The notes under the pieces: generated by a model
Seen by the model: only the letters and a program-made list of their open reading frames with translations
Databases searched by the model: none
What the model was told of the DNA's origin: nothing
Part shown: positions 1 through 13,332 of the stretch, in pieces
How positions within the stretch are numbered: position 1 is the stretch's first letter
Layout: every line of letters starts with the position of its first letter
Source: a virus
IMG/VR virus record: IMGVR_UViG_3300035698_006323
Coordinates: 1-23,225 of that record
DNA: 23,225 nucleotides
Direction: 5' to 3' (one strand)
Made by a program: the position numbers and the translations under genes

Positions 1-1273
1 AAAGAGTTGTAATTGAATCTGTTATTCCTTTAAGACGAGCAAGTTCCGTAAGCGAAGGATATGTCGCTACCGCTAAGGTCTGGACATAACCAGAAGCGTC
101 AAGAGCTAATATCTCTGAAACCGTTAAATCTGCGAAGTCAATGTTACCTGTAAGCGTTGCCCCTGTTACTGAAATGTCCGTCGCCACTGGGCTTATTAGT
201 GTCCAATCGGTTACTGTGACAACATCATCTATCGTCGGTGAAGCCCATGTACCGCCTAACTCTCCACCTGGAACCTCTGTTGCATTATAAACTGCGTTAC
301 CACCTTCTGTAAGCGTAGCACCTTCGATCGTACCTAAAGCAGTAACACCCCCGTCTGTGGTGACAGCGCCATTCGGGCCGACTTGAAATACCGTGTTTGG
401 TGTACCGCCCATATCTTCACGGCATCGGATATAATGACCGTATATGCCGTCATCTTCGTTGTAAGTAACGTCCAGCATATAAATTGCCTGCCCTAAACTA
501 GCAGTGTTCGCTAACGTCATGAAGGTATCGCTATCTTGAAGTGTGGTATATGTAGCAGTTTCCCCGTCAGCAAAAGATATTGAACCCGCTGCGTCTGGGT
601 CGCCTATATCGTCATAAGCTACTGAAGCTGTTATGTCGTCTGGAATATGTGCGTCCGTGAGGGCGGTGAAGGCTACTGCTCCCCCGCCATTATCCATTAG
701 AAATGTATTTGCCGCACCCCTGGCTGTAGGCAAAATATAATCCGCTGCCCCCGGCCCGATAGTCATTTTCCCGTCAGCTCCTAGTTTCCATACGAGGTCG
801 CCGTTGTTATCTCTCGCTTCTAAAAATGTTCCGTTAATAGATCCATCGTCTGTATGCTGTAATGTAAGCAGTACGACTTCATTATCAAGGTCGGTGTCGG
901 TATTTTCGATCATAAGAACAGACGTATTTTCTCCGTCTATCGTGGACGAAAACACGGTTTTGTATGTGTCTAACGCTATTGCTGTATCACCATCAGGATC
1001 GCCTATATCGTCCCAGGCCGTCACTCCGGCTTCGAGAACGAGAGCTTCTATCTTATCATATATAGCATTTTGAGAAGGGGCTGTGTATATAGACCCATCC
1101 CAACTTGCGCCGTAAACATCATCAGAAGGTTGGTAGAGAGATGAATCCGCAACGACCCAATCCAGACGTCCTGTATGGGGGTTGAATCTCATCTTATAGT
1201 CCGTTGCGTACGCGGATGTTACGAAGAATAGAAACAGAATCGCTAAGTGAAATATTCGCTTTTTAAAGACCAT
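1..1273 (-). CDS. Tail-fibre-like protein with N-terminal signal peptide (partial, runs off left edge)
   Basis: The frame is open for 424 codons from the ATG at 1273 to the window edge, so the C-terminus is missing. GGAGG sits 4 nt before the ATG, and the gene overlaps the end of the 77-aa gene by 31 nt. Residues 1-23 are a textbook signal peptide: KKR, then a hydrophobic stretch, then AYA before TDYK. After that come patterns I recognise from phage tail fibres: YTAPSQNAIYDKIEAL (63-78), GELGGTWASPTIDD (337-350), and a VATYPSLTELARLKGIT stretch (402-418) near the edge. An internal repeat starts at WDDIGDPDG (87-95) and YDDIGDPDA (220-228); each copy runs about 90 residues and ends in a GxDGKMTIG or GPNGAVTTD motif. 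Fibre assignment is inferred from these motifs and from gene position. The signal peptide is unusual for a virion protein. The protein could instead be an exported or surface-displayed product. Confidence 0.8.
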   Translation of the reverse strand, partial: MVFKKRIFHLAILFLFFVTSAYATDYKMRFNPHTGRLDWVVADSSLYQPSDDVYGASWDGSIYTAPSQNAIYDKIEALVLEAGVTAWDDIGDPDGDTAIALDTYKTVFSSTIDGENTSVLMIENTDTDLDNEVVLLTLQHTDDGSINGTFLEARDNNGDLVWKLGADGKMTIGPGAADYILPTARGAANTFLMDNGGGAVAFTALTDAHIPDDITASVAYDDIGDPDAAGSISFADGETATYTTLQDSDTFMTLANTASLGQAIYMLDVTYNEDDGIYGHYIRCREDMGGTPNTVFQVGPNGAVTTDGGVTALGTIEGATLTEGGNAVYNATEVPGGELGGTWASPTIDDVVTVTDWTLISPVATDISVTGATLTGNIDFADLTVSEILALDASGYVQTLAVATYPSLTELARLKGITDSITTL

Positions 1274-1476
1274 ATCGCCTCCCCCACTGATTCAGTTTGA
1301 GTTAAGAAATTAGAAGCGTCGTAAGTAAATTTTATAATTACCCAAACAGCGGAATCTTCTGAAGAACCTTTTGCGGCGTACCCTAGATACTCCGGCTGTC
1401 CATCTGTACGAGTGCCGTAATCAAGTAACTGCACGCGATTTGGTATATCACGGAAATAAGCGTCAGCTAATCTCAT
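1243..1476 (-). CDS. Small conserved-looking tail-locus protein, 77 aa
   Basis: The 77-aa ORF has a strong RBS (GGAGGGGG, about 6 nt before the ATG at 1476). Its last 31 nt overlap the start of the downstream fibre-like gene, so the two are probably translationally coupled. The sequence includes VQLLDYGTRTDGQPEYLGYA, an acidic/serine turn, WVIIKFTYDAS and a final IWSLKSEYF. This RTDGQPxYxGxA ... FTYD ... W layout resembles small proteins that I recall lying next to fibre genes in environmental tailed phages. That is from memory, not a search. The protein is soluble, beta-rich in appearance, with no signal peptide or membrane segment. A minor tail or fibre-adaptor role is a guess from position. 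Confidence 0.7.
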   Translation of the reverse strand: MRLADAYFRDIPNRVQLLDYGTRTDGQPEYLGYAAKGSSEDSAVWVIIKFTYDASNFLTQTESVGEAIWSLKSEYFT

Positions 1477-1490
1477 CTATAACCCCCTCC

Positions 1491-1904
1491 TTATTCTTTT
1501 CCAAGAGAAGCCAGTAACTTGTTTTTGTACCCTTTCTTTTCTTTCTCAAGGGCGGCTATCCGCTGTTTAAGATCCTCGTTACGATTTTTATAATCATCTT
1601 CCTTTTCGTCCAATAGAGCTAGACGATCAGACTGTTTTCTCTCAAACACTTTTACCTTTGTCTCTAAATTAGAGACCCCATAAGCGAGATCATTCTCTCT
1701 TTTTTCCAGCTCTTCAGCTGTCTGAATAAGCCTTTCCTTCTCAAGAACGACTTTCTCACGTGCCTCTATAGCAACAAGAGACTCTTGAGCCTGGTTCTGT
1801 CGTTCGATAGCTCGCTTCTTATCTATCCCTGTTTGCTCAATAAGATCCTGTAACACTGCAAGGGCATCTGCAAGATGTTTCAATACCGATTTTACCTGTT
1901 CCAT
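1491..1904 (-). CDS. Coiled-coil protein, 137 aa, in tail-fibre locus
   Basis: The 137-residue protein is almost entirely alpha-helical coiled coil. It is rich in E, K, L, Q and R with heptad-like spacing from about residue 3 (VKSVLKHLADALAVLQDLI) to about 130, and has no Cys or Trp. A GGGAGGGG ribosome binding site lies 4 nt before the ATG at 1904. It sits between the signal-peptide protein (start 2299) and the 77-aa gene, with short gaps on both sides. There is no export signal. Possible roles are a rod-like tail component, a fibre chaperone, or an oligomerisation partner for the neighbouring fibre-like protein. The sequence does not choose between these. Confidence 0.75.
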   Translation of the reverse strand: MEQVKSVLKHLADALAVLQDLIEQTGIDKKRAIERQNQAQESLVAIEAREKVVLEKERLIQTAEELEKRENDLAYGVSNLETKVKVFERKQSDRLALLDEKEDDYKNRNEDLKQRIAALEKEKKGYKNKLLASLGKE

Positions 1905-1933: not shown

Positions 1934-2299
1934 TTATTGATACGTTATATTAACACCTAATGTCCCGCCCGATTTATCTATGTCGAGGTATATACCACCG
2001 TCAACCGTTAGAGCTCTTTCCGGGGTATATAAAAAAGTCCCGTGTGCCGCAGGCGCCGCAAAAGTAAAAAATATATCGTCCTGATCTACTGCCCCTACCG
2101 CTACCTCGTTACTAAGAGTAAGCCTATCTCCCGCCGTGACACCTGTATAATACACCGTAGCGTCATAGAGAATCGTAGACGCTGACGTAATCTGCTGGTC
2201 AGAGTCATAATACGCTCTCGGTACCCACCGAGGCGCGGCAAAACATACACCCACTAAAGTTAATAAAATGACTACCGCAAAAAGACCACTTCTTTTCAT
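1934..2299 (-). CDS. Exported small beta-rich protein with signal peptide, 121 aa
   Basis: The ATG at 2299 follows a GGGGGGAGT ribosome binding site. Residues 1-21 form a signal peptide: MKR, a hydrophobic core (LFAVVILLTLVGV), then CFA before APRW. A signal peptidase I cut after residue 21 is likely. The cysteine is not in a good lipobox because V precedes it. The mature ~100 residues contain YYTGVTAGDRLTL, FTFAAPAAHGTFLYTP and GGIYLDIDKSGGTLGVNITY, a repetitive beta-strand pattern like small phage fibre-associated beta domains I recall, although those usually lack a signal peptide. Function is unknown. Its neighbour at the left edge has the same export feature, so the two may act together at the cell envelope or on released particles. 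Confidence 0.75.
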   Translation of the reverse strand: MKRSGLFAVVILLTLVGVCFAAPRWVPRAYYDSDQQITSASTILYDATVYYTGVTAGDRLTLSNEVAVGAVDQDDIFFTFAAPAAHGTFLYTPERALTVDGGIYLDIDKSGGTLGVNITYQ

Positions 2300-2355: not shown

Positions 2356-2553
2356 TTAATTGTTATACTTGATATCGCAATAATCGTTTCCCTTATTCTG
2401 CATTTTACACCAGATGGTCTTTCCGTGTTTCTTAAATCGTCCACTAACCGTGTTACTAACAACAGCCGGTGCCAACAGTCCAGCAACCGTCGCTAACCCG
2501 ATAATCGTAATCATAGCCAACTCACCTTTTTTATTTCTGATTGATTTTAGCAT
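2356..2553 (-). CDS. Small single-membrane-span protein, 65 aa
   Basis: The ATG at 2553 has AGGAG upstream with a 9-nt spacer. The layout is a basic N-terminus (KSIRNKKG, residues 3-10), one hydrophobic segment of about 22 residues (12-33, ITIIGLATVAGLLAPAVV), then a basic, hydrophilic tail with two cysteines (C49, C59). It lies directly downstream of the glycine-rich fibre end and upstream of the signal-peptide protein. The KKGELAMITIIG start slightly recalls prepilin-type leaders, but the glutamate expected at +5 is absent. A holin- or spanin-like lysis role is possible for a small one-span protein in a late operon; nothing specific supports it. Confidence 0.65.
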   Translation of the reverse strand: MLKSIRNKKGELAMITIIGLATVAGLLAPAVVSNTVSGRFKKHGKTIWCKMQNKGNDYCDIKYNN

Positions 2554-2596: not shown

Positions 2597-3160
2597 TTAC
2601 CATTGAACAATTACGAGACCTGCTATACCCGCCCCACCTGTTTTATCTGTCCCGGTATCACCAGCACCTCCACCACCACAGCCAAAGCCAACGCCAGGAT
2701 TGCCGTTTTCACTTGTACTTCCACCAGCACCACCGGCACCCGTACCGATAGCAACACTGCCGCCGCCACCGCCACCACTATTAGCTGAGCCTGTACTAGA
2801 GCCACCTGCTCCTCCAGCAAAAGATAAATATATAGCATTTCCAGCAGCACCGCTACCATCTGTTGCATCTGCGCCATCTAAATCTGTTGAATTTGCCGAT
2901 GCCCCTGCTCCTCCGGTACCACCGTTAGCACCACTAAGTCCTTTTACACCGCCGGAAACAGGAATGGAATCAAAAGATGTTTCGCCACCTGATACACCAT
3001 CTGCTGCCGCGACCCCACCTGCACCACCAGCGCCGATCGTTACCGTAAGTTCCGTCAGCAGGCGTGACCTTATGAATAAATCTTGAAGACTCACCACCGC
3101 CGCCGCCGCCGCCACCGTCATCACCATCGGCGTTTGTTCCACCGCCTCCGGCCCCGCCAC
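2597..3160 (-). CDS. Glycine-rich C-terminal part of the tail fibre, out of frame with its N-terminal part
   Basis: This frame encodes the continuation of the fibre that starts at 3863. True fibre sequence begins about 3043 (VTIGAGGAGGVAAADG). A collagen-like or polyglycine-II-like glycine-rich region follows and ends in AGIAGLVIVQW, a typical ending for glycine-rich phage fibre tips. The nominal GTG start at 3160 has no ribosome binding site. The first ~37 codons up to the junction overlap coding sequence of the upstream frame and read as a shadow, so an independent protein is unlikely. Joining both frames gives about 421 residues. The break may be a real mutation, a sequencing error in a GC-rich repeat, or a recoding site. 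Confidence 0.6.
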   Translation of the reverse strand: MAGPEAVEQTPMVMTVAAAAAVVSLQDLFIRSRLLTELTVTIGAGGAGGVAAADGVSGGETSFDSIPVSGGVKGLSGANGGTGGAGASANSTDLDGADATDGSGAAGNAIYLSFAGGAGGSSTGSANSGGGGGGSVAIGTGAGGAGGSTSENGNPGVGFGCGGGGAGDTGTDKTGGAGIAGLVIVQW

Positions 3161-3863
3161 CTATCTCGGTGACTAGAACTTCTGTAACCCCAGCCGGGAC
3201 AGTGAATGTGCCGCTGCTGGTAAAAGTCTCCGTAAACGTAGTAGGTGCATTTGCTATATCGCCGTAGTCAATTAACCGGCTACTAACTCCGTCATGATCG
3301 TGTCCAGTATCAATATCGTTGGCCGTACCAATAGCATCTGAGATCGCATTGTCAACATCATCCACGACACTCTCCACATAGTCTGCGTCGTCTGAAGCCT
3401 CCGCCGCTGCCGCAACTGCGGTATCCGCCGAAGCTGACGCTGACGCTACTGCGAGCGGGTCTTGGTCTTCCGAATAGTCAATGGCATCATTAATCTGCTG
3501 GATCTGCATAGCCAGGCGATCAAGAGCATTTTCAATAACTGTCTCGTTAATTCCCGCGCGTGCAGGAAGATCAGCCGTCTGGGTATACGGTATGGCCCGC
3601 AACATCAAAATCTCGTCGTAATCTTCCGGTTCGGCTTCTGTCCAAACCTCGTCAACATATGAGCCTGTCTGAACCGTACCACCTTCCGTTTCCGTGTTAA
3701 TAGTAACCACGTAGTCGGTGTCCAAAACTAACAACGTCACAGCATCATCTGAATCAACACCATAAACCGATATCTCTGTATCGGCAAAAATTTTAAAAGT
3801 GAAATCATAATCATAGCCGGATACAGCTAATTGCGTACGTGCATTTGAGGCATCAACTGTCAT
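2970..3863 (-). CDS. Tail fibre protein, T7 gp17-like N-terminal domain; frameshifted C-terminus
   Basis: Residues 1 to about 120 match the layout of the T7 tail-fibre N-terminal adaptor domain (Phage_T7_tail), which joins the fibre to the tail tube: DYDFTFKIF, then VYGVDSDDAVTLLVLDTDYV, then LMLRAIPYTQTADLPARAGI and a helical NETVIENALDRLAMQIQQI. An Ala/Ser/Asp-rich stretch and a beta region (TFTSSGTFTVPAGVTEVLVTEI) lead into a Gly run. After TPADGTY (about residue 273) the frame yields Trp/Arg/Cys-rich sequence unlike any fibre and stops at 2970. The glycine-rich fibre sequence continues in another frame. The start overlaps the stop of the 1625-aa gene as TAATG, with AGAGGAG upstream. Confidence 0.8.
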   Translation of the reverse strand: MTVDASNARTQLAVSGYDYDFTFKIFADTEISVYGVDSDDAVTLLVLDTDYVVTINTETEGGTVQTGSYVDEVWTEAEPEDYDEILMLRAIPYTQTADLPARAGINETVIENALDRLAMQIQQINDAIDYSEDQDPLAVASASASADTAVAAAAEASDDADYVESVVDDVDNAISDAIGTANDIDTGHDHDGVSSRLIDYGDIANAPTTFTETFTSSGTFTVPAGVTEVLVTEIGGGAGGGGTNADGDDGGGGGGGGESSRFIHKVTPADGTYGNDRRWWCRWGRGSRWCIRWRNIF

Positions 3864-6800
3864 TAAAATACTCCTCTATGGTAGTTAATCATCTCTACAG
3901 ATTGCCCGTATAAGAGGCCGGGCGTGTCAACAGGGTCCCATTCTCCTTCTGAGTGGAGATAGAGCGCCTGTATACTATCTATTATCCCTGAAGGCATACC
4001 CGTTGTCAAGCCAACATCCTGTTTTCCTGCTTTGAAAACTTGCTTCATAACGTCCTCTAATTCGACATCCTCCTCGAAGGCTTTGCGTATCGCTTTCGCC
4101 GTGGTCTTCTTAGCTTTATTCATGGCCTGCACGACAGCAGGACCGGAATCAAAACCCTTATATCCTGTAATAGCCTGAGCCGCGAAAGAACCAATATCGC
4201 CGAGAATCCAGAGACCGGCAAACGGCCCTGTCATCATCTGCGCGCCCAGCATAGCTAGACGTTTTGCCTCGTCTTCCTCATCCTCCGGCGGTGGAACACC
4301 TATCTGAGAGATAGCCCACCTGGCAGCAGGGATATAAACGTGGAAAATGACCATCGTTCTAGCCCACTGCTGAACATTCTTTGCTGAGGGGTCCTTTATC
4401 ATCTTAGTCCAAGAACGGTGATACTGCCTGGCAAACTGCGATACCGCACTTATAAATTGAAACAGATACCTTTGCGGCCCCACCGTAGCAGCACTCTGCT
4501 GTTCCCGAAGAGCCGATTGCTGAGAATTTAGAACGAAATTATCGAGCGCCTCGTACGCCGTATCTATATTGTTTGTGCGATCATACGCCTCTTTAAATAC
4601 CGCCCAGCCACCTATAAGAATACCACCCCTATTACCACCCCGGACGAACATAAAAGCATATTTGTCAAACCAGTTAAATTTATCTCTAAATCGAGTCCGC
4701 TGTAGGCGGATTAGGTCCTGAATTTCCTTCATTTCGATCATGATATTCTTATATCTATTATGCTGAGACAGCGCTTTACTGAGCAACTTATTTGCCCCCG
4801 CTGGATCCCGCATAAAGGAGGCAATACCTTTAACGAAATTAACGTGCCCAATCGACTGGATGGCTGTAAAAGCAGAAGACAGCTGTAGAACAAACTGTTT
4901 AGGCTTGGCCAGAACCGAACGACTCAGATTCCGACGTAACAAATCCATCGCCGGAGGCCGGATATTGTTATCTGTCCTGCCTCTCGAGGCAAGACCTTTT
5001 AGGTGGAAATCCATCATCTTTACATACGAACCATCTCGCCATTCCCCGGTAGCCTTATCCTGAACCCCATCTGTCGCCTCGTTAATAGCATCCCGGACAG
5101 CACGGTTCCTCAGATACCCCTGCATACGAGCTGTGATGTCGTGTGTGGCTATCCAATGACTCATAATGTCCCGGAACCCCATGAATACATCCATCATCCC
5201 TATTTGAGCGAACGGAGCTGTCGAGGTCGTTCGGCGCTCTTTCGTGGAGCCAGGAAAAGGCGTCACGTGAGCCTCGATCATAGAATACTCTGTGAGAAGG
5301 TCCTGGACGGACTTTACGGAAGCGGTTTTCTTAATTCTTGGCATATAAGACTCGATATTTGTCATATCCACGCCTGTAGCACGCGCATACACGGGGTTGA
5401 TCAGCGGCCAGAAGGAGGTAAATATCTTCCTCATTTCCATAGCAAACTGCCTGTCCTGGGGTGTCAGATCAGCGAACATATTTTCTAAAACCTCAGCGGG
5501 GATTGCGTTTCCTTTAATACCCTTCGCCCGTTCGGCCACCTTATCGTCAATACTATCTTCTGTCGCGTTTTCCTGGCCTAATACCTCTGTTCTGTACCCT
5601 GATAATAACTCCTGTAATTTCTCATTCTGCTTTTCTGTAAGCTCTTTACCTGCCTCCATCTTCTGTAAAATTACCTCAACTACCGCTGTTTTTTCACCGC
5701 GTAAAAACTGAGCAATATGACCCCCACCTAATCTCGTCTTCCCACTTCCACCTTCTCCATCATCGACTAACGGGTTGGGTTCAGCAAAAGACATCATGTC
5801 TACAATTTCTCTGAGGTCTTCTAAATCCGAAGTCTGTTTAGCCCCGCTACCTTCTAACTCAGCTTGCGTTCTGATAGCGGCAAGCTCGTTCTCCCCGGTC
5901 AAAGTTTCGTAAGCCTCCGCATCCTGGACACCTTCCCCCTGATATGCAGAAGCATACCAGTAAAGTACGTCCCACCGGGACATCTTGAACTGTTTCGTCT
6001 CTCCGTTATTCAAAACAACGGTGGCTATATATGGCGACACGTTCGGGTCATCCGAGGGCTCAATAGACATGCGCTCAGTGAGGAATTTCACGTACTTCCG
6101 CGTGTTCTGCATAGGGATCTCATAGATATCCAACATGGCCTGCCGGACCTTCCGATCCATCGCTATCTGTATGGCCGCAGTGTTCCGTGAAATCTTCTTG
6201 AGTGGCTGAACAACCATCCGGTCGATAAAAGAACCCTCTTTTCCGCCACCTAGATTGCCCCAAAACTCGCCTAAATTAAATGCCGAAAACTCAAAGAAGC
6301 TACTAATCCCCCTACTCGCTTTCTTAAATATCTTGCCGATCCCTGACTTCGGCTCCCAGCTAACTTTCTTGATTTCAGACACCGTGCTAACCTCTTCAGC
6401 CTTTCTCTGCGCCTTACGAAGCTCCTTAACCACGTCTCGTCCAGTTTGAAATTGAGCTAGTTGCCGGGATATTGCATCGATAGCCGTCTCTAATTCGTCA
6501 GCATTTCGCTGTTCGAGGCCACTTATTTTTGACAAAATATCTGCTCTATACCGCAATTCGTCAGCCGCCTCGCTCTGCCCCTCTCCTAACTCTAACAATT
6601 TCACGATCTGATTATGGACATCCGCAAGCTCTTTTTCTGCGTCCGGCCTGGATAGAGACGCCACTCTTATCACCTCATCAGCTAAACGCTGGATATTGGC
6701 GTTAGCAAAAGCCCCCCTCTTGACACCGTTAACGACCTTGGACCTCATCCTCTCGGTAATCGAAGTTGCCCGCTGGCGTAACTGCTTCGCTCGGACTGTC

Positions 6801-8740
6801 TCACGTAGCTTCTCGACCTCAGCGAAAAACTTCTGGAGCTTCGCCTCTGTCATATCTTTAGCCGCACGGAGAGTAAACTTCTCACGGAGCTTTGCGTTCT
6901 CGGGTCCGGGAAGACGCGCCTGAAGGTATTTAACAAGTGCGGTCCGGCGTTCCTCCGCCTGTGCTTTTTCGTTACGGAATACGGTTTCTGTCTCTGATCG
7001 GGCCATACGCTCTCCCACCTTACGCGCACGTCCGCGAAGAGTCTCTAAAGTCTCACCAGGCAATACGAGTTTTTCTCGAGCCAATTCCTCAGCAGTAGAA
7101 TCTGTGACATCAGATAGCTGGGCATGGACAGACATGAGCTGCTTTGATAGAGATACTAGCTGCTTTTGCTTCTGCTCTACCACCTTTGCAGCCGTCTTGT
7201 CCTCTGATTTCTGAAGCTGCTTTACGTCCTTCTCGAGTGCTGTCATCTCCTTCTCGATCGCGGTGCGCTGGACATCCAACTCAGCCGTACGTCCACGAAT
7301 TAATAGCTCCATCTGCTTCTCGCGGTCTGCTTCTTTAAATTCTTTTGACGAGGTGATCTCATCTACCACCTTACGTTCCGGTGCTGGCTTCGACGCGTCA
7401 AATTCCACGCCACCTTCGCGCTTCTTTATCGTTAGTTGCTCGAGCTCCTCTTTAGATAGCTCGACCTGCGGAAGCGGGGCTGTAGCATCCTCAACAGCTC
7501 TCTCAACCGGGTCAACCTCTTCTCTTAATATCTCCTGCGCCTTGGTCCGTGCTTCAGGAACACCGGCCTTTTTCTTGGCCTGCTGGTATCTATTTAGCGC
7601 AGCAAAACCCTGCTGCATCCCAAGATGAGTAGCACCAGGTACCGCCAAAACACCCATCATAACAGCAAGCTCGTCACCAGAAGGTACGGCTGCAATCATC
7701 CTATCGAGAGTACCACCATCGGACCCGAAATCTTCGACGTTAAAAAAAGCTCTCATCTGGTCCCCCCAAACCTCTTCGAGAACTTCAGGAATGAATCCAT
7801 CCCACCCGGTCTTCGTAAATAACTTTCCAACAGACTCGAGAGGGTGCAATTTCTTAAACATGTCTTTAATAACCTTACCAGTACCGGCAAGAAATTTAGC
7901 ACTCCCCATCTTCTTAAATGCTGGATTGAATATGTACTTCCCCGCCTCTTCGGAGAATACCTCTATATAGACGTCACCCAGAGCCTTCATAAAAGAAGTA
8001 ACCGGAGCCGACTGTACCTGCTCATTTAATTGAAGTCCCTTGTCTGTAGGAGTGAGATTTAAAGCCGCCTCTTGCTCGTAAAATCCAGTCGCCACACGCG
8101 GAGCAAAGACCGTTCCTGTCCTGATCGCCGCAGCCGTGGCCATCTTAGTCGCCCCAGCCGCGAATTTTTGAGCCCCTTTCTTGACACCCATTTTTAACAA
8201 CTGTTTAGCAGTAAACCGAGCCGCAGTCGTGGCACCTGGGTCGGCAAAAAATTTACTTAGTGCAAACTCAACCATATACGCAGGGAGCTGTGCTGCCCCT
8301 TCGACAACCTGTCCACCCCAAGTAAATCCACGAAGCTGTTCCTCGCCGGCGTATTTTATGGCCTTCTCAGCCGTCTCCATATCCTTCACTCTCAACTCGT
8401 CATTGTCTCCATACTCGTCTTTCTGGAGCCTGGTGAAAGAACGCTGAACAGCCGCAGCCTCGTATAATAAAAAAGGCAACCCAACGACGGGAACCTTCTC
8501 CATCTTCTTCATGCGAACGGCCTGTTCAAAATGCCCTATCTTGCCTTTTGCTTTTAGTACATTAGCCTCAGCCTCAGTAAAACTCAGATTACTTAAATCG
8601 AAGTCCTCCTGCTGAACCTTCTGTCCATCCTGCATCGCATTTAAGTCATCCAGGCGAACGGACGTCGTAGGAGCTTTCGCACCTTCTGGTAAAGGAGAAA
8701 CTGCACTCTCTGGTGGAAGTTCATCAAGTCTGATAACCAT
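3863..8740 (-). CDS. Giant internal virion / DNA-ejection protein candidate, 1625 aa
   Basis: It occupies the position of T7 gp16, between the 546-aa ejection protein candidate and the tail fibre, and is of similar or larger size. Hydrophobic or amphipathic segments lie near residues 82-100, 138-165 and 355-385. A long charged coiled-coil region spans about 465-800. A less charged second half includes MTNIESYMPRIKK and a hydrophobic C-terminal part around 1455-1530 (for example MVIFHVYIPAARWAISQIG and GPFAGLWILGDIGSFAAQAI). I see no convincing lytic transglycosylase motif, unlike T7 gp16. The layout also recalls large polyvalent phage proteins delivered with the DNA. Its start overlaps the previous stop (TAATG). 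The ejection role is inferred from order, size and membrane-active segments. Confidence 0.8.
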   Translation of the reverse strand: MVIRLDELPPESAVSPLPEGAKAPTTSVRLDDLNAMQDGQKVQQEDFDLSNLSFTEAEANVLKAKGKIGHFEQAVRMKKMEKVPVVGLPFLLYEAAAVQRSFTRLQKDEYGDNDELRVKDMETAEKAIKYAGEEQLRGFTWGGQVVEGAAQLPAYMVEFALSKFFADPGATTAARFTAKQLLKMGVKKGAQKFAAGATKMATAAAIRTGTVFAPRVATGFYEQEAALNLTPTDKGLQLNEQVQSAPVTSFMKALGDVYIEVFSEEAGKYIFNPAFKKMGSAKFLAGTGKVIKDMFKKLHPLESVGKLFTKTGWDGFIPEVLEEVWGDQMRAFFNVEDFGSDGGTLDRMIAAVPSGDELAVMMGVLAVPGATHLGMQQGFAALNRYQQAKKKAGVPEARTKAQEILREEVDPVERAVEDATAPLPQVELSKEELEQLTIKKREGGVEFDASKPAPERKVVDEITSSKEFKEADREKQMELLIRGRTAELDVQRTAIEKEMTALEKDVKQLQKSEDKTAAKVVEQKQKQLVSLSKQLMSVHAQLSDVTDSTAEELAREKLVLPGETLETLRGRARKVGERMARSETETVFRNEKAQAEERRTALVKYLQARLPGPENAKLREKFTLRAAKDMTEAKLQKFFAEVEKLRETVRAKQLRQRATSITERMRSKVVNGVKRGAFANANIQRLADEVIRVASLSRPDAEKELADVHNQIVKLLELGEGQSEAADELRYRADILSKISGLEQRNADELETAIDAISRQLAQFQTGRDVVKELRKAQRKAEEVSTVSEIKKVSWEPKSGIGKIFKKASRGISSFFEFSAFNLGEFWGNLGGGKEGSFIDRMVVQPLKKISRNTAAIQIAMDRKVRQAMLDIYEIPMQNTRKYVKFLTERMSIEPSDDPNVSPYIATVVLNNGETKQFKMSRWDVLYWYASAYQGEGVQDAEAYETLTGENELAAIRTQAELEGSGAKQTSDLEDLREIVDMMSFAEPNPLVDDGEGGSGKTRLGGGHIAQFLRGEKTAVVEVILQKMEAGKELTEKQNEKLQELLSGYRTEVLGQENATEDSIDDKVAERAKGIKGNAIPAEVLENMFADLTPQDRQFAMEMRKIFTSFWPLINPVYARATGVDMTNIESYMPRIKKTASVKSVQDLLTEYSMIEAHVTPFPGSTKERRTTSTAPFAQIGMMDVFMGFRDIMSHWIATHDITARMQGYLRNRAVRDAINEATDGVQDKATGEWRDGSYVKMMDFHLKGLASRGRTDNNIRPPAMDLLRRNLSRSVLAKPKQFVLQLSSAFTAIQSIGHVNFVKGIASFMRDPAGANKLLSKALSQHNRYKNIMIEMKEIQDLIRLQRTRFRDKFNWFDKYAFMFVRGGNRGGILIGGWAVFKEAYDRTNNIDTAYEALDNFVLNSQQSALREQQSAATVGPQRYLFQFISAVSQFARQYHRSWTKMIKDPSAKNVQQWARTMVIFHVYIPAARWAISQIGVPPPEDEEDEAKRLAMLGAQMMTGPFAGLWILGDIGSFAAQAITGYKGFDSGPAVVQAMNKAKKTTAKAIRKAFEEDVELEDVMKQVFKAGKQDVGLTTGMPSGIIDSIQALYLHSEGEWDPVDTPGLLYGQSVEMINYHRGVF
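3981..4009 (-). promoter_or_regulatory. Leftward promoter candidate inside the 3' end of the 1625-aa gene
   Basis: On the minus strand, TTGACA (4009-4004) is followed after exactly 17 nt by GATAAT (3986-3981): 6 of 6 and 5 of 6 matches to consensus. The expected start near 3974 is about 110 nt before the tail-fibre ATG at 3863. It lies within coding sequence (around residues 1578-1587), so chance cannot be excluded, but its position fits a boost for the fibre locus. Confidence 0.5.
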
Positions 8741-10388: not shown

Positions 10389-10826
10389 CTATTCAAAAAT
10401 TTCTGATTTATGTGCGGTAGTGCCGATCGTACCGACTCCGGATAGAATACCGGAAACTAACTGGGCCCTACCAGACTTTCTTGTAACAGCGGCCTGCCGG
10501 TGTCCTAGAGTATATTTTGCTGCGCCAGACTTTATAATTGCGTCTATCTCTTTCTGAAACTCATTAAACGTGGCCTCCTGAACAATACCTGGCGTCCCCA
10601 TCAAAGAAACTCCACTCGCAACGTAAGCCATTCTCTGTTCAGCAAGAAACTTTCTACGCTGGTCTGACTTTTGTCCGGCCTCCCGTTCAGACTCAGATAG
10701 CGCAATTTTCGCCTGCTCCTCCTGGAGACTGGCGGTTTCCCCAGCCGCGTTCTTTTTGGCTATCCCAGAATAAATTTGTGATCCGCCGGCTGCGAGACCA
10801 GCAACTAACAAGGCTACTTCGGCCAT
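10389..10826 (-). CDS. Internal virion protein, T7 gp14-like position, 145 aa
   Basis: An N-terminal hydrophobic, Ala/Gly-rich segment (ALLVAGLAAGGSQIYSGIA, residues 4-22) is followed by a charged helix (about 25-65) and a second Gly/Ser-rich segment near the C-terminus (AQLVSGILSGVGTIG). Small Ala/Gly-rich proteins of this type in this slot (T7 gp14, P22 gp7-like) are ejected early and inserted into the outer membrane. The motif RMAYVASGVSLMGTPGIV is typical of such proteins in many podoviruses. The AGGAGG ribosome binding site lies inside the end of the upstream gene, whose stop overlaps this start (TAATG). Family assignment is inferred. Confidence 0.75.
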   Translation of the reverse strand: MAEVALLVAGLAAGGSQIYSGIAKKNAAGETASLQEEQAKIALSESEREAGQKSDQRRKFLAEQRMAYVASGVSLMGTPGIVQEATFNEFQKEIDAIIKSGAAKYTLGHRQAAVTRKSGRAQLVSGILSGVGTIGTTAHKSEIFE

Positions 10827-11266
10827 TAGCTTCCTCCTACTATTGACATCATTATGTGATCCTTTCCGTCATATCCGAATTTTCGTAACCGTCCTTCATA
10901 CGAAAACCCCAATCGTTTAGCAAAATTTAAAAAGAGCTCCTCGTCTCTACAATTTATCTGTACCCTGCGCGATCTCTTAGCCAAAGAACCTAATCCTTTT
11001 TTCAACAGCTTTACCGAACCCAAAATTCTATGACGAAAAAGCTCCGTCGGAAATAACGATACCTCAGCCACACCCTCCCATGCCTGATACCAGCCAGCAA
11101 TAAACACTACCGAGTCACCTTCCCAAACCGTCCAGAACGTCTTACTCTTTTCCATAAGCAACAACACACCGACAATACCATTTGCTAGATTCCATTTCTC
11201 AAACCCTACACCGTTAATTAACTTAGCGTCTACATAGTCTCCCATCTTAAACGGCTTGACTATCAT
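10826..11266 (-). CDS. GNAT-fold acetyltransferase-like protein in T7 gp13 position, 146 aa
   Basis: The C-terminal half has the GNAT signature: VAEVSLFPTE (strand 4, about 66-75), a helix, RVQINCRDEELFLNFAKRLGF (101-121), then YEGRLRKFGYDGKDHIMMSIV (123-143). The acetyl-CoA pyrophosphate loop (R/QxxGxG/A) is degenerate, with FRHRILGS in its place, so catalytic activity is doubtful. GNAT-like proteins at this slot are common in podoviruses, and T7 gp13 is a virion-assembly protein encoded here. It starts within the tail tube B stop (ATGA) and ends within the next start. It is probably a structural or assembly factor rather than an active enzyme. Confidence 0.75.
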   Translation of the reverse strand: MIVKPFKMGDYVDAKLINGVGFEKWNLANGIVGVLLLMEKSKTFWTVWEGDSVVFIAGWYQAWEGVAEVSLFPTELFRHRILGSVKLLKKGLGSLAKRSRRVQINCRDEELFLNFAKRLGFSYEGRLRKFGYDGKDHIMMSIVGGS

Positions 11267-13332
11267 TTTTCTCCGACTTCGACCGTGGCGTTAAAAGCAT
11301 TAAGCATACACGGATACGGGTCGTCCTGGACGTACATAATACGTTTATCCGACGACCACGAATCTGCGTGTGGTAAAGATATCACCCCGGTAACAGGTAC
11401 CGGAGGGGAGTCCGTATCTCCACCTGTCTCCGTTGCAGCGATATCTTCTAAATCGTAAAACGAAGTGCCATACTTTACACCTATCGTATGTGAAACAACA
11501 AGTGCTAAGGAGCTTACATTCTTACCGAAGGATATAGAATTCTGCAACTGCCCAGTCACGACAAGGTTTAACGGGATGACGACACCACGGTATTTATACC
11601 CTACGTGGACGACTTCCGCGTCCCAATCTAAGGTAACTGACCCGTCCGCTACAACTAAAGCAGCATGTATTCTACCGTCTGTCAACGCATAAACTGTCTC
11701 TCCCTCTAAATGCCAAAGCCCAGTAATGGTGTCTGTCTCCGCCCCATCGTAAGTTAAAGAGCTATCAAGATAAATAGCATCCTGCTGTGCAGCAAATAAC
11801 GCAGCATCATAAACAACATCGTCAGCGGTTTCGTTATCTTCACCGGTATAGTAGTCGTCTCGTCGTACACCCTCGTACGGTTCATTGGTGTACTCAGTAT
11901 ACCTCGTCGTCGTACTATTTATCGTTCTTTCAACGACAGCGTATAGCCTATCGTAACCCGTTACCTGCGGCTCAACGGCGATACTTATAACACTCCCACT
12001 ACCACCTAATTTATGCCTGTGCCAACCCGACACATCCTCTTTTGGTTTGATCGTTAGGCAGATCAATACGCCGTCATTACGAACAGCCCAAAGAAGATCA
12101 GTCTTCCACCGCTGAATTGCAAGCTGTTTAATTCCTCCTTGGGTAAGATGAGAAGCGAGAAATTGTCTATCTGTGGATTTATAGTTATCCAATAGAACAT
12201 CGTAATCAAAACTTCGTAACGTGCGACTACCTTTCTGCATATAAAAAATTGACTGCCCGTTAACAACAGGCATGATGCCCTGAACACCAACAGGGTCGAT
12301 AGGTCGGATACGATAATTTGAAGGCGTGATAGCTGCATCCCCGCCACCATCCATACCTAGCACCCCGCCCTCTGTTCCTATCGCTATAAATTCTTGCAAC
12401 CCGGCTAGCCATTGGATATACGCTATATCTCCTGTGCCTGTCGCTACGGAAGTTATGATAGCGTGGTCTGCGTCTTCCCCAGTAGTATAGTCCTCATACC
12501 TAGTAGCCCCCGTAGCTTGCGGTCCTCGCGTACGCCAGAGCCGGTCAGGATAATCATTAGAGCTGCCCATATACAAACACCCTTCGTAAAAAGCCACAGC
12601 GCCAGGGTATTTATCAGCACCGGTAAACGGATCAGCTGTACGGGCGTAGGTAGCAAAAGTCCAAGCCGTAGCACTTACTCGTGTCAACTTATATGGCGCA
12701 TAGCCCCGGCTAACAAAATACGCTATGTTTCCTTCCTGGTCAAATTGGAAGTCTTCTAAATCTGCTTCCGCATAAGGAGAAGTCACTTCATAAACGGGGG
12801 CTGCCGTGCCGGCTGAAGCATACGCTGTATAGTCTGTACTATTCACGGCGTTGCCAAATAAATCTTTTAATGACACTGTGTTAGCACCTAAGTTAACCAC
12901 CCGAAAAAATCGTCCGTTAAGTTCCGTCATACCAACGACTCCGGAAATATAAATTTCATCGTTAGTCGTTAAAGCATGTCCGGTGATTGTTAAAACACAG
13001 GGCCCTGCTTGAGTAGCGCCAGCAATCGTTTCGGTAGTTGCCGCACTAGTAGTGATCGCTGCATCCTCGTAGATACGTAACTTCGCATCCGTGAATTCTA
13101 AGATGTATACCTGTTCGTCGTTATGCTTAAATCGTTCGATACGGGATGTTTTCTGAAGACGGGAAGGGTGCACATACGTAGATCCACCACGATATTGCGC
13201 GGGGCCTTGGATCAGAGAAAAGAAATTTTCACAACGTGCTAAAGCATTTTTATAGAGCTCGGAATCGTAGCGACCGAAGATTTCTTCAGAAACCTCCCCA
13301 CCAGAGAAATTAGATAGGAATTGTTCAAACAT
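11263..13332 (-). CDS. Tail tubular protein B (T7 gp12-like nozzle protein), 689 aa
   Basis: The N-terminus (LSNFSGGEVSEEIFGRYDSE, then YKNALARCENFFSLIQGPAQ and a YRGGSTYV motif) is characteristic of the podovirus tail nozzle / tail tubular protein B family. Size (689 aa) and beta-rich composition fit; T7 gp12 is of similar length. A later run such as YTGEDADHAIITSVATGTGD and IQWLAGLQEFIAIGTEGGVL matches the propeller-like central region seen in these proteins. It directly follows tail tubular protein A with a 9-nt gap, and overlaps the GNAT-like gene by 4 nt (ATGA). It forms the distal tail to which fibres and ejection proteins dock. Confidence 0.88.
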   Translation of the reverse strand: MFEQFLSNFSGGEVSEEIFGRYDSELYKNALARCENFFSLIQGPAQYRGGSTYVHPSRLQKTSRIERFKHNDEQVYILEFTDAKLRIYEDAAITTSAATTETIAGATQAGPCVLTITGHALTTNDEIYISGVVGMTELNGRFFRVVNLGANTVSLKDLFGNAVNSTDYTAYASAGTAAPVYEVTSPYAEADLEDFQFDQEGNIAYFVSRGYAPYKLTRVSATAWTFATYARTADPFTGADKYPGAVAFYEGCLYMGSSNDYPDRLWRTRGPQATGATRYEDYTTGEDADHAIITSVATGTGDIAYIQWLAGLQEFIAIGTEGGVLGMDGGGDAAITPSNYRIRPIDPVGVQGIMPVVNGQSIFYMQKGSRTLRSFDYDVLLDNYKSTDRQFLASHLTQGGIKQLAIQRWKTDLLWAVRNDGVLICLTIKPKEDVSGWHRHKLGGSGSVISIAVEPQVTGYDRLYAVVERTINSTTTRYTEYTNEPYEGVRRDDYYTGEDNETADDVVYDAALFAAQQDAIYLDSSLTYDGAETDTITGLWHLEGETVYALTDGRIHAALVVADGSVTLDWDAEVVHVGYKYRGVVIPLNLVVTGQLQNSISFGKNVSSLALVVSHTIGVKYGTSFYDLEDIAATETGGDTDSPPVPVTGVISLPHADSWSSDKRIMYVQDDPYPCMLNAFNATVEVGEK

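Follow-up and report, generated by a model that had tools for sequence, protein, structure and literature searches.

Exported and adsorption proteins of known phages

Tailed-virus particles are generally understood to assemble within the cell, which makes secretion signals on tail genes odd. The filamentous phages assemble in the membrane, and their adsorption protein pIII, a coat protein, passes through Sec, is trimmed by signal peptidase and has a C-terminal membrane anchor. The fibre described below resembles pIII as a phage adsorption-type protein with a Sec leader, its export being predicted here, but it belongs to a tailed podovirus and most of its relatives have no C-terminal anchor. 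ORF22 of the Thermobifida phage P1312 combines a predicted leader with a carbohydrate-binding domain and was proposed to act outside (PMC4569894); it has other domains than the present fibre and comes from another phage group, and its outside role was inferred by the authors. The protein gp38 blocks adsorption, with no leader reported (PMC12946066).

A tagged cassette in a podovirus late region

The window, that is the whole stretch of DNA analysed, is an entire IMG/VR record of 23,225 bp. It covers a podovirus late region (terminase, portal, capsid, tail tubular proteins, internal virion protein and T7-type fibre) whose gene order is that of the HTVC010P-like phages. The order common to the window and to the HTVC010P-like and related podoviruses (Lederberg EXVC029P, MW202898, MW202485) is terminase, portal, capsid, tail tubular A and B, acetyltransferase, internal virion proteins and T7-type fibre. 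The fibre region distinguishes them, with a tagged protein, meaning one that bears a predicted Sec leader, in MW202898 and none seen in Lederberg or MW202485. MW202898 (Podoviridae sp. ct8d5349) is a complete, circular genome syntenic with the window, and its tagged fibre of 917 aa lies directly after the T7-type fibre, at the same locus as the window's. No further relatives of this 917-aa fibre were found in the phage collection.

The window features listed with coordinates in this paragraph, and the leader and ribosome site of the fibre gene, lie on the minus strand. The conventional T7-type tail fibre (2597..3863), recognized by phrog_863 and Gly_rich_2, has a virion-attaching N-terminal domain and a Gly-rich C-terminal domain and occupies two overlapping frames. 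Both frames match consecutive parts of Pfam Gly_rich_2 and phrog_863 (400-456, then 465-603), and the frameshift, near 3040-3060, may be a sequence error, a real mutation or a programmed event. This fibre is followed, in order, by a small hydrophobic protein (65 aa, with a hydrophobic N-terminal segment; 2356..2553), a second signal-peptide protein (1934..2299), a coiled-coil-like protein (1491..1904), a 77-aa ORF (1243..1476) and the tagged fibre-like gene (2..1273). The second signal-peptide protein, of 121 aa, begins with a strong predicted Sec leader, MKRSGLFAVVILLTLVGVCFA, with APR after the predicted cut; no relatives of this gene were found among the viral contigs searched. The 77-aa ORF has no family match in Pfam or PHROG and shares 31 bases with the beginning of the fibre gene, to which it is probably translationally coupled. 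Two strong leaders are present within this one cassette and none on head or core tail genes; tail tubular protein B (11263..13332), identified by family match, has no signal peptide in the leader scan.

Leader and start of the fibre gene

The fibre-like ORF, correctly placed by the first-pass annotation, encodes 424 aa and is open to the contig edge; the 3' end of the gene is missing because the window is the whole record. Its predicted N-terminal Sec signal peptide is of the textbook type, MVFKKRIFHLAILFLFFVTSAYA followed by TDYK, with MVFKKR as n-region, LAILFLFFV as h-region and TSAYA as c-region. It spans residues 1-23 (1205..1273), and the cut by signal peptidase I is predicted after A23, between SAYA and TDYK. 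The n-region is basic, the h-region uncharged and the residues at -3 and -1 small, as in substrates of Sec and signal peptidase I, and the cleavage region has no lipobox Cys at +1 of the kind that would mark a lipoprotein (superinfection-exclusion type, e.g. Llp). Signal-peptide calls were rule-based with a measured background. The leader scores 5.06, compared with 4.78 for E. coli OmpA, and a score of at least 4.7 was reached by 16 of 200,000 random N-termini drawn with the window's own composition (about 8e-5). The Sec leader ending in AYA that was proposed at first pass looks genuine. The start proposed on the strength of a ribosome binding site stands as well. The site GGGGGAGG (1274..1287, 5' of the ATG) is found four bases before the ATG and the upstream sequence reads ...CAGTGGGGGAGGCGAT-ATG, so the ribosome site of the fibre gene is real, whereas M28, the only other Met near the start, has no such site when read from the sequence.

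The leader could in principle be an artefact, produced by a wrong start, by a chimeric assembly or by a chance hydrophobic N-terminus. The gene is indeed metagenomic and truncated at a contig edge, and the sequence at Met28 (MRFNP...) is similar to MSMKFNP, with which other phage proteins natively start. This reading has against it the ribosome site at the leader start, the chance rate of about 8e-5 and the same arrangement in many separate contigs as well as in a complete public genome; it is largely refuted by this recurrence and is considered extremely improbable. Behind the window leader, the segment M[KR]FNPxTGxLD corresponds to the native N-terminus, MSMKFNPITGKLD, of untagged 165-aa proteins from another phage group, a likeness that concerns a short motif and is only suggestive.

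From the sequence, we conclude that the leader is most probably a real export tag on a tail appendage protein. Leaders of this kind are read as working Sec signals because of their short hydrophobic cores, their Ala-X-Ala-like sites and a character conserved despite divergence, and export of the fibre is accordingly rated as likely.

The fibre body and its relatives

Residues 45-110 of the protein match the solved phage tail fibre 9k09 (E 4e-4), over a short stretch of 66 residues that surrounds TAPSQNAIYDKIEAL. A D-x-YG-x-x-W-x-G...YDKIE-type segment is common to both, but the window protein has a Sec leader about 20 residues ahead of it. The body further contains two copies of a TAWDDIGDPD-type domain common to 12 viral contigs, and GELGGT-W/Y-like segments are found again in its relatives; with the 9k09 match, these recurring segments confirm that the fibre motifs pointed out earlier are real. 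The 424-aa protein has no match among Pfam or PHROG families. A virion-attaching N-terminal domain of the T7 gp17 type is absent from this protein, which begins with the leader, and sits instead in ORF 2970-3863. The predicted structure (mean pLDDT 44) is too poor a model to judge a trimeric fibre fold.

The scan of viral contigs provided 12 loci with the TAWDDIGDPD domain, 11 of them with an intact start. A comparison of homologues with and without the leader had been proposed by the first-pass annotation; a signal peptide is present in 9 of these 11 relatives, with lower scores for L011 and L013, and the homologues do not start uniformly after residue 23. In the two untagged relatives, L006 and L010, a coiled coil is fused at the fibre start instead. 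In L003, L004, L008 and L011, as in the window, the tagged fibre has a coiled-coil gene upstream of it, and no sequence homology was detected between these coiled coils. A C-terminal membrane-like segment is absent from the full-length fibre relatives, the window gene being cut before its end. In L003, a small tagged protein (5495-5680) and the adjoining tagged fibre (5677-7215) have PVVxYGKDSTGAxY in common behind the leader, a pattern that looks like a duplicated N-terminus.

Leaders as a recurrent trait of external tail genes

The tagged neighbours found in the related loci comprise fibres, LamG proteins, a beta-helix protein and small tail proteins. Under a strict rule (score of at least 3.9, ORFs of at least 200 aa), tagged ORFs amount to 10 of 35 in the fibre set (A) and 23 of 87 in the nozzle set (B), versus 2 of 745 in 159 control podovirus loci. 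The corresponding Fisher p values against the controls are 5e-13 for set A and 4e-22 for set B, in a comparison where ORFs within one locus, and related loci, are non-independent, and where set A was picked via the fibre, which makes its own fibre counts non-independent, and set B via the nozzle. The control figure bears out the earlier claim that leaders are abnormal for virion fibres. The idea of a trait general to podoviruses was rejected, as T7-type fibre loci at large have no tagged large proteins.

Among the clearly assigned families of set B, tags occur on external tail genes only. No convincing leader was found in the capsid, adaptor, acetyltransferase and internal virion families of this set, the one capsid-side flag (L028 1201, score 3.2) being devoid of the usual hydrophobic leader. 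Tagged ORFs are also rare outside the tail cluster in two near-whole records, G001 and G003. The pattern is that of a recurrent trait of some uncultivated podoviruses, in which export tags sit on external components of the tail (fibres, lectin-like proteins and the nozzle of one clade) and head, adaptor and internal proteins are untagged.

If these leaders work, a large share of the external tail is exported in the related uncultivated podoviruses, which could either finish tail assembly outside the cytoplasm or field secreted adhesins from tail genes. An exported fibre acting alone outside the virion would coat the cell or its surroundings, bind the receptor, and block the re-adsorption of progeny or the entry of rival phages. 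Because the window encodes a conventional T7-type fibre as well, the tagged fibre may not belong to the virion at all; it lies in an accessory cassette placed after the conventional fibre, next to a second protein predicted to be exported. Relatives carry tagged beta-helix proteins and tagged lectin-like LamG proteins, and a membrane-like segment stands at the C-terminus of two LamG proteins. A role of this kind was given by inference to ORF22 of phage P1312 (PMC4569894). No receptor-blocking activity is known for the fibre family, however, and an independent role leaves unexplained the leader on the sole nozzle copy of three related phages. This explanation is possible, and we hold it only tentatively.

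Several smaller observations accompany these results. The LamG proteins L002 9520-10389 and L025 16151-17071 start with a signal peptide and carry at the C-terminus a hydrophobic segment with basic residues behind it, a layout that resembles a surface-anchored lectin and would suit a cell-surface role over a virion role. The only large tagged ORFs among the controls, L103 11299-12810 and L110 11449-12906, form a related pair of about 500 aa at the end of the fibre module in HTVC010P-like phages. Disulphide formation as a reason for export was rejected, the cysteine counts having no bias to even numbers.

A tagged nozzle in related phages

The nozzle family, which is not a gene of the window, is phrog_3287, with the PHROG label virion structural protein. 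Its profile matches the podophage nozzles solved by cryo-EM, 9nwi (E 9.5e-21), 8zkm and 8zkk (both about 5e-12), the first of which is the nozzle of phage Pa223 (PMC13299392). The nozzles of L022, L023 and L028 are homologous to these three, but a complete predicted Sec leader is added exactly and directly before their normal M-x-YQPFLI start. Untagged homologues (L024, L025, L026 and L029) have 51-54% identity to L022, and the tagged nozzles constitute one clade (support 95/99). The letters of the L022 and L028 leaders have diverged and their leader character has been kept. The small gene located after the nozzle displays the same tagged/untagged contrast. This clade is a natural experiment, in which the same protein is encoded at the same gene place with and without a leader. 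No description of tagged versus untagged nozzles was found in the open-licence papers searched, and no nozzle relatives were found in the phage collection.

Each of the three tagged records has one nozzle copy, and the proposal of a tagged decoy beside an untagged second copy was rejected for all three. In G001, two nozzle matches proved to belong to a single ORF that an inserted domain interrupts. The tagged nozzle of L022 (9001-11097) contains an inserted F5/8 type C (galactose-binding-like) domain absent from its relatives, and a further nozzle-like protein, encoded by L005 at 4001-6205, is also tagged (hhalign probability 82%). The predicted structure of the nozzle has a mean pLDDT of 45. 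The StenR_269 tip protein and the window tail tubular protein B were considered as members of the nozzle family and rejected, no link being found for either. The first-pass annotation had offered two meanings for the fibre leader, export for an action outside or addition to the virus in an unusual compartment; its view of the leader as genuine and abnormal holds, and it had overlooked a recurrent trait that reaches a single-copy nozzle in related phages.

The nozzle also bears on the proposal that the leader is an uncleaved hydrophobic N-terminal anchor, by which tail parts would be kept at the inner membrane during assembly or inserted into the host membrane at infection. Since the nozzle exists in one copy and has a virion part as its homologue, assembly would be simplest with a form that the virion retains. 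The hydrophobic stretches are nevertheless short, of about 8-12 residues, with an Ala-X-Ala or similar site behind them, which is the pattern of cleaved leaders and not of anchors, and the divergence of L022 and L028 with leader character preserved equally opposes an anchor. This proposal is regarded as improbable.

A proposed export followed by late addition

The preferred reading is that the fibre is exported, stays in the envelope and joins completed heads when the cell lyses or later, and we put it somewhat short of an even balance. The Sec signal peptide would stand in place of the virion-binding N-terminal domain, the chain would pass the host Sec translocon, signal peptidase I would trim it after Ala23, and the protein would fold outside the cytoplasm, to be held in the envelope before joining the heads. 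The leader itself, its recurrence, its confinement to external parts and its exact addition to a single-copy nozzle are observed; translocation, cleavage and late addition of the fibre are steps that we infer.

Late addition to the particle fits with the tagged nozzle. A leader on a lone, essential-looking virion protein is hard to explain if the tagged proteins are dispensable decoys; as the trait reaches this single-copy protein, some weight therefore shifts from a dispensable decoy to virion parts that cross the envelope. The difficulty is that heads, once filled, would stay unsealed up to lysis if the nozzle were exported across the inner membrane, a situation hard to reconcile with podovirus assembly. 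The broader proposal, in which some tailed phages would export the external tail, from the fibres up to the nozzle, via Sec and finish the virion outside the cytoplasm, during lysis or later, is rated as rather unlikely. A Sec-exported external tail, if true, would break with the rule of cytoplasmic completion of tailed virions.

Host search and a recurrent neighbour

A host search with the nozzle profile against genome contigs gave no match, and the capsid profile matched a single short contig from a Deltaproteobacteria MAG, which is insufficient for naming a host. In distant podoviruses, an acetyltransferase-like gene lies close to the genes of the tail protein and of the internal virion protein: at 10826-11266 in the window, 28588-29019 in L017, 9934-10389 in L020 and 18572-19057 in L028, and it is annotated as such in L017 and L020.
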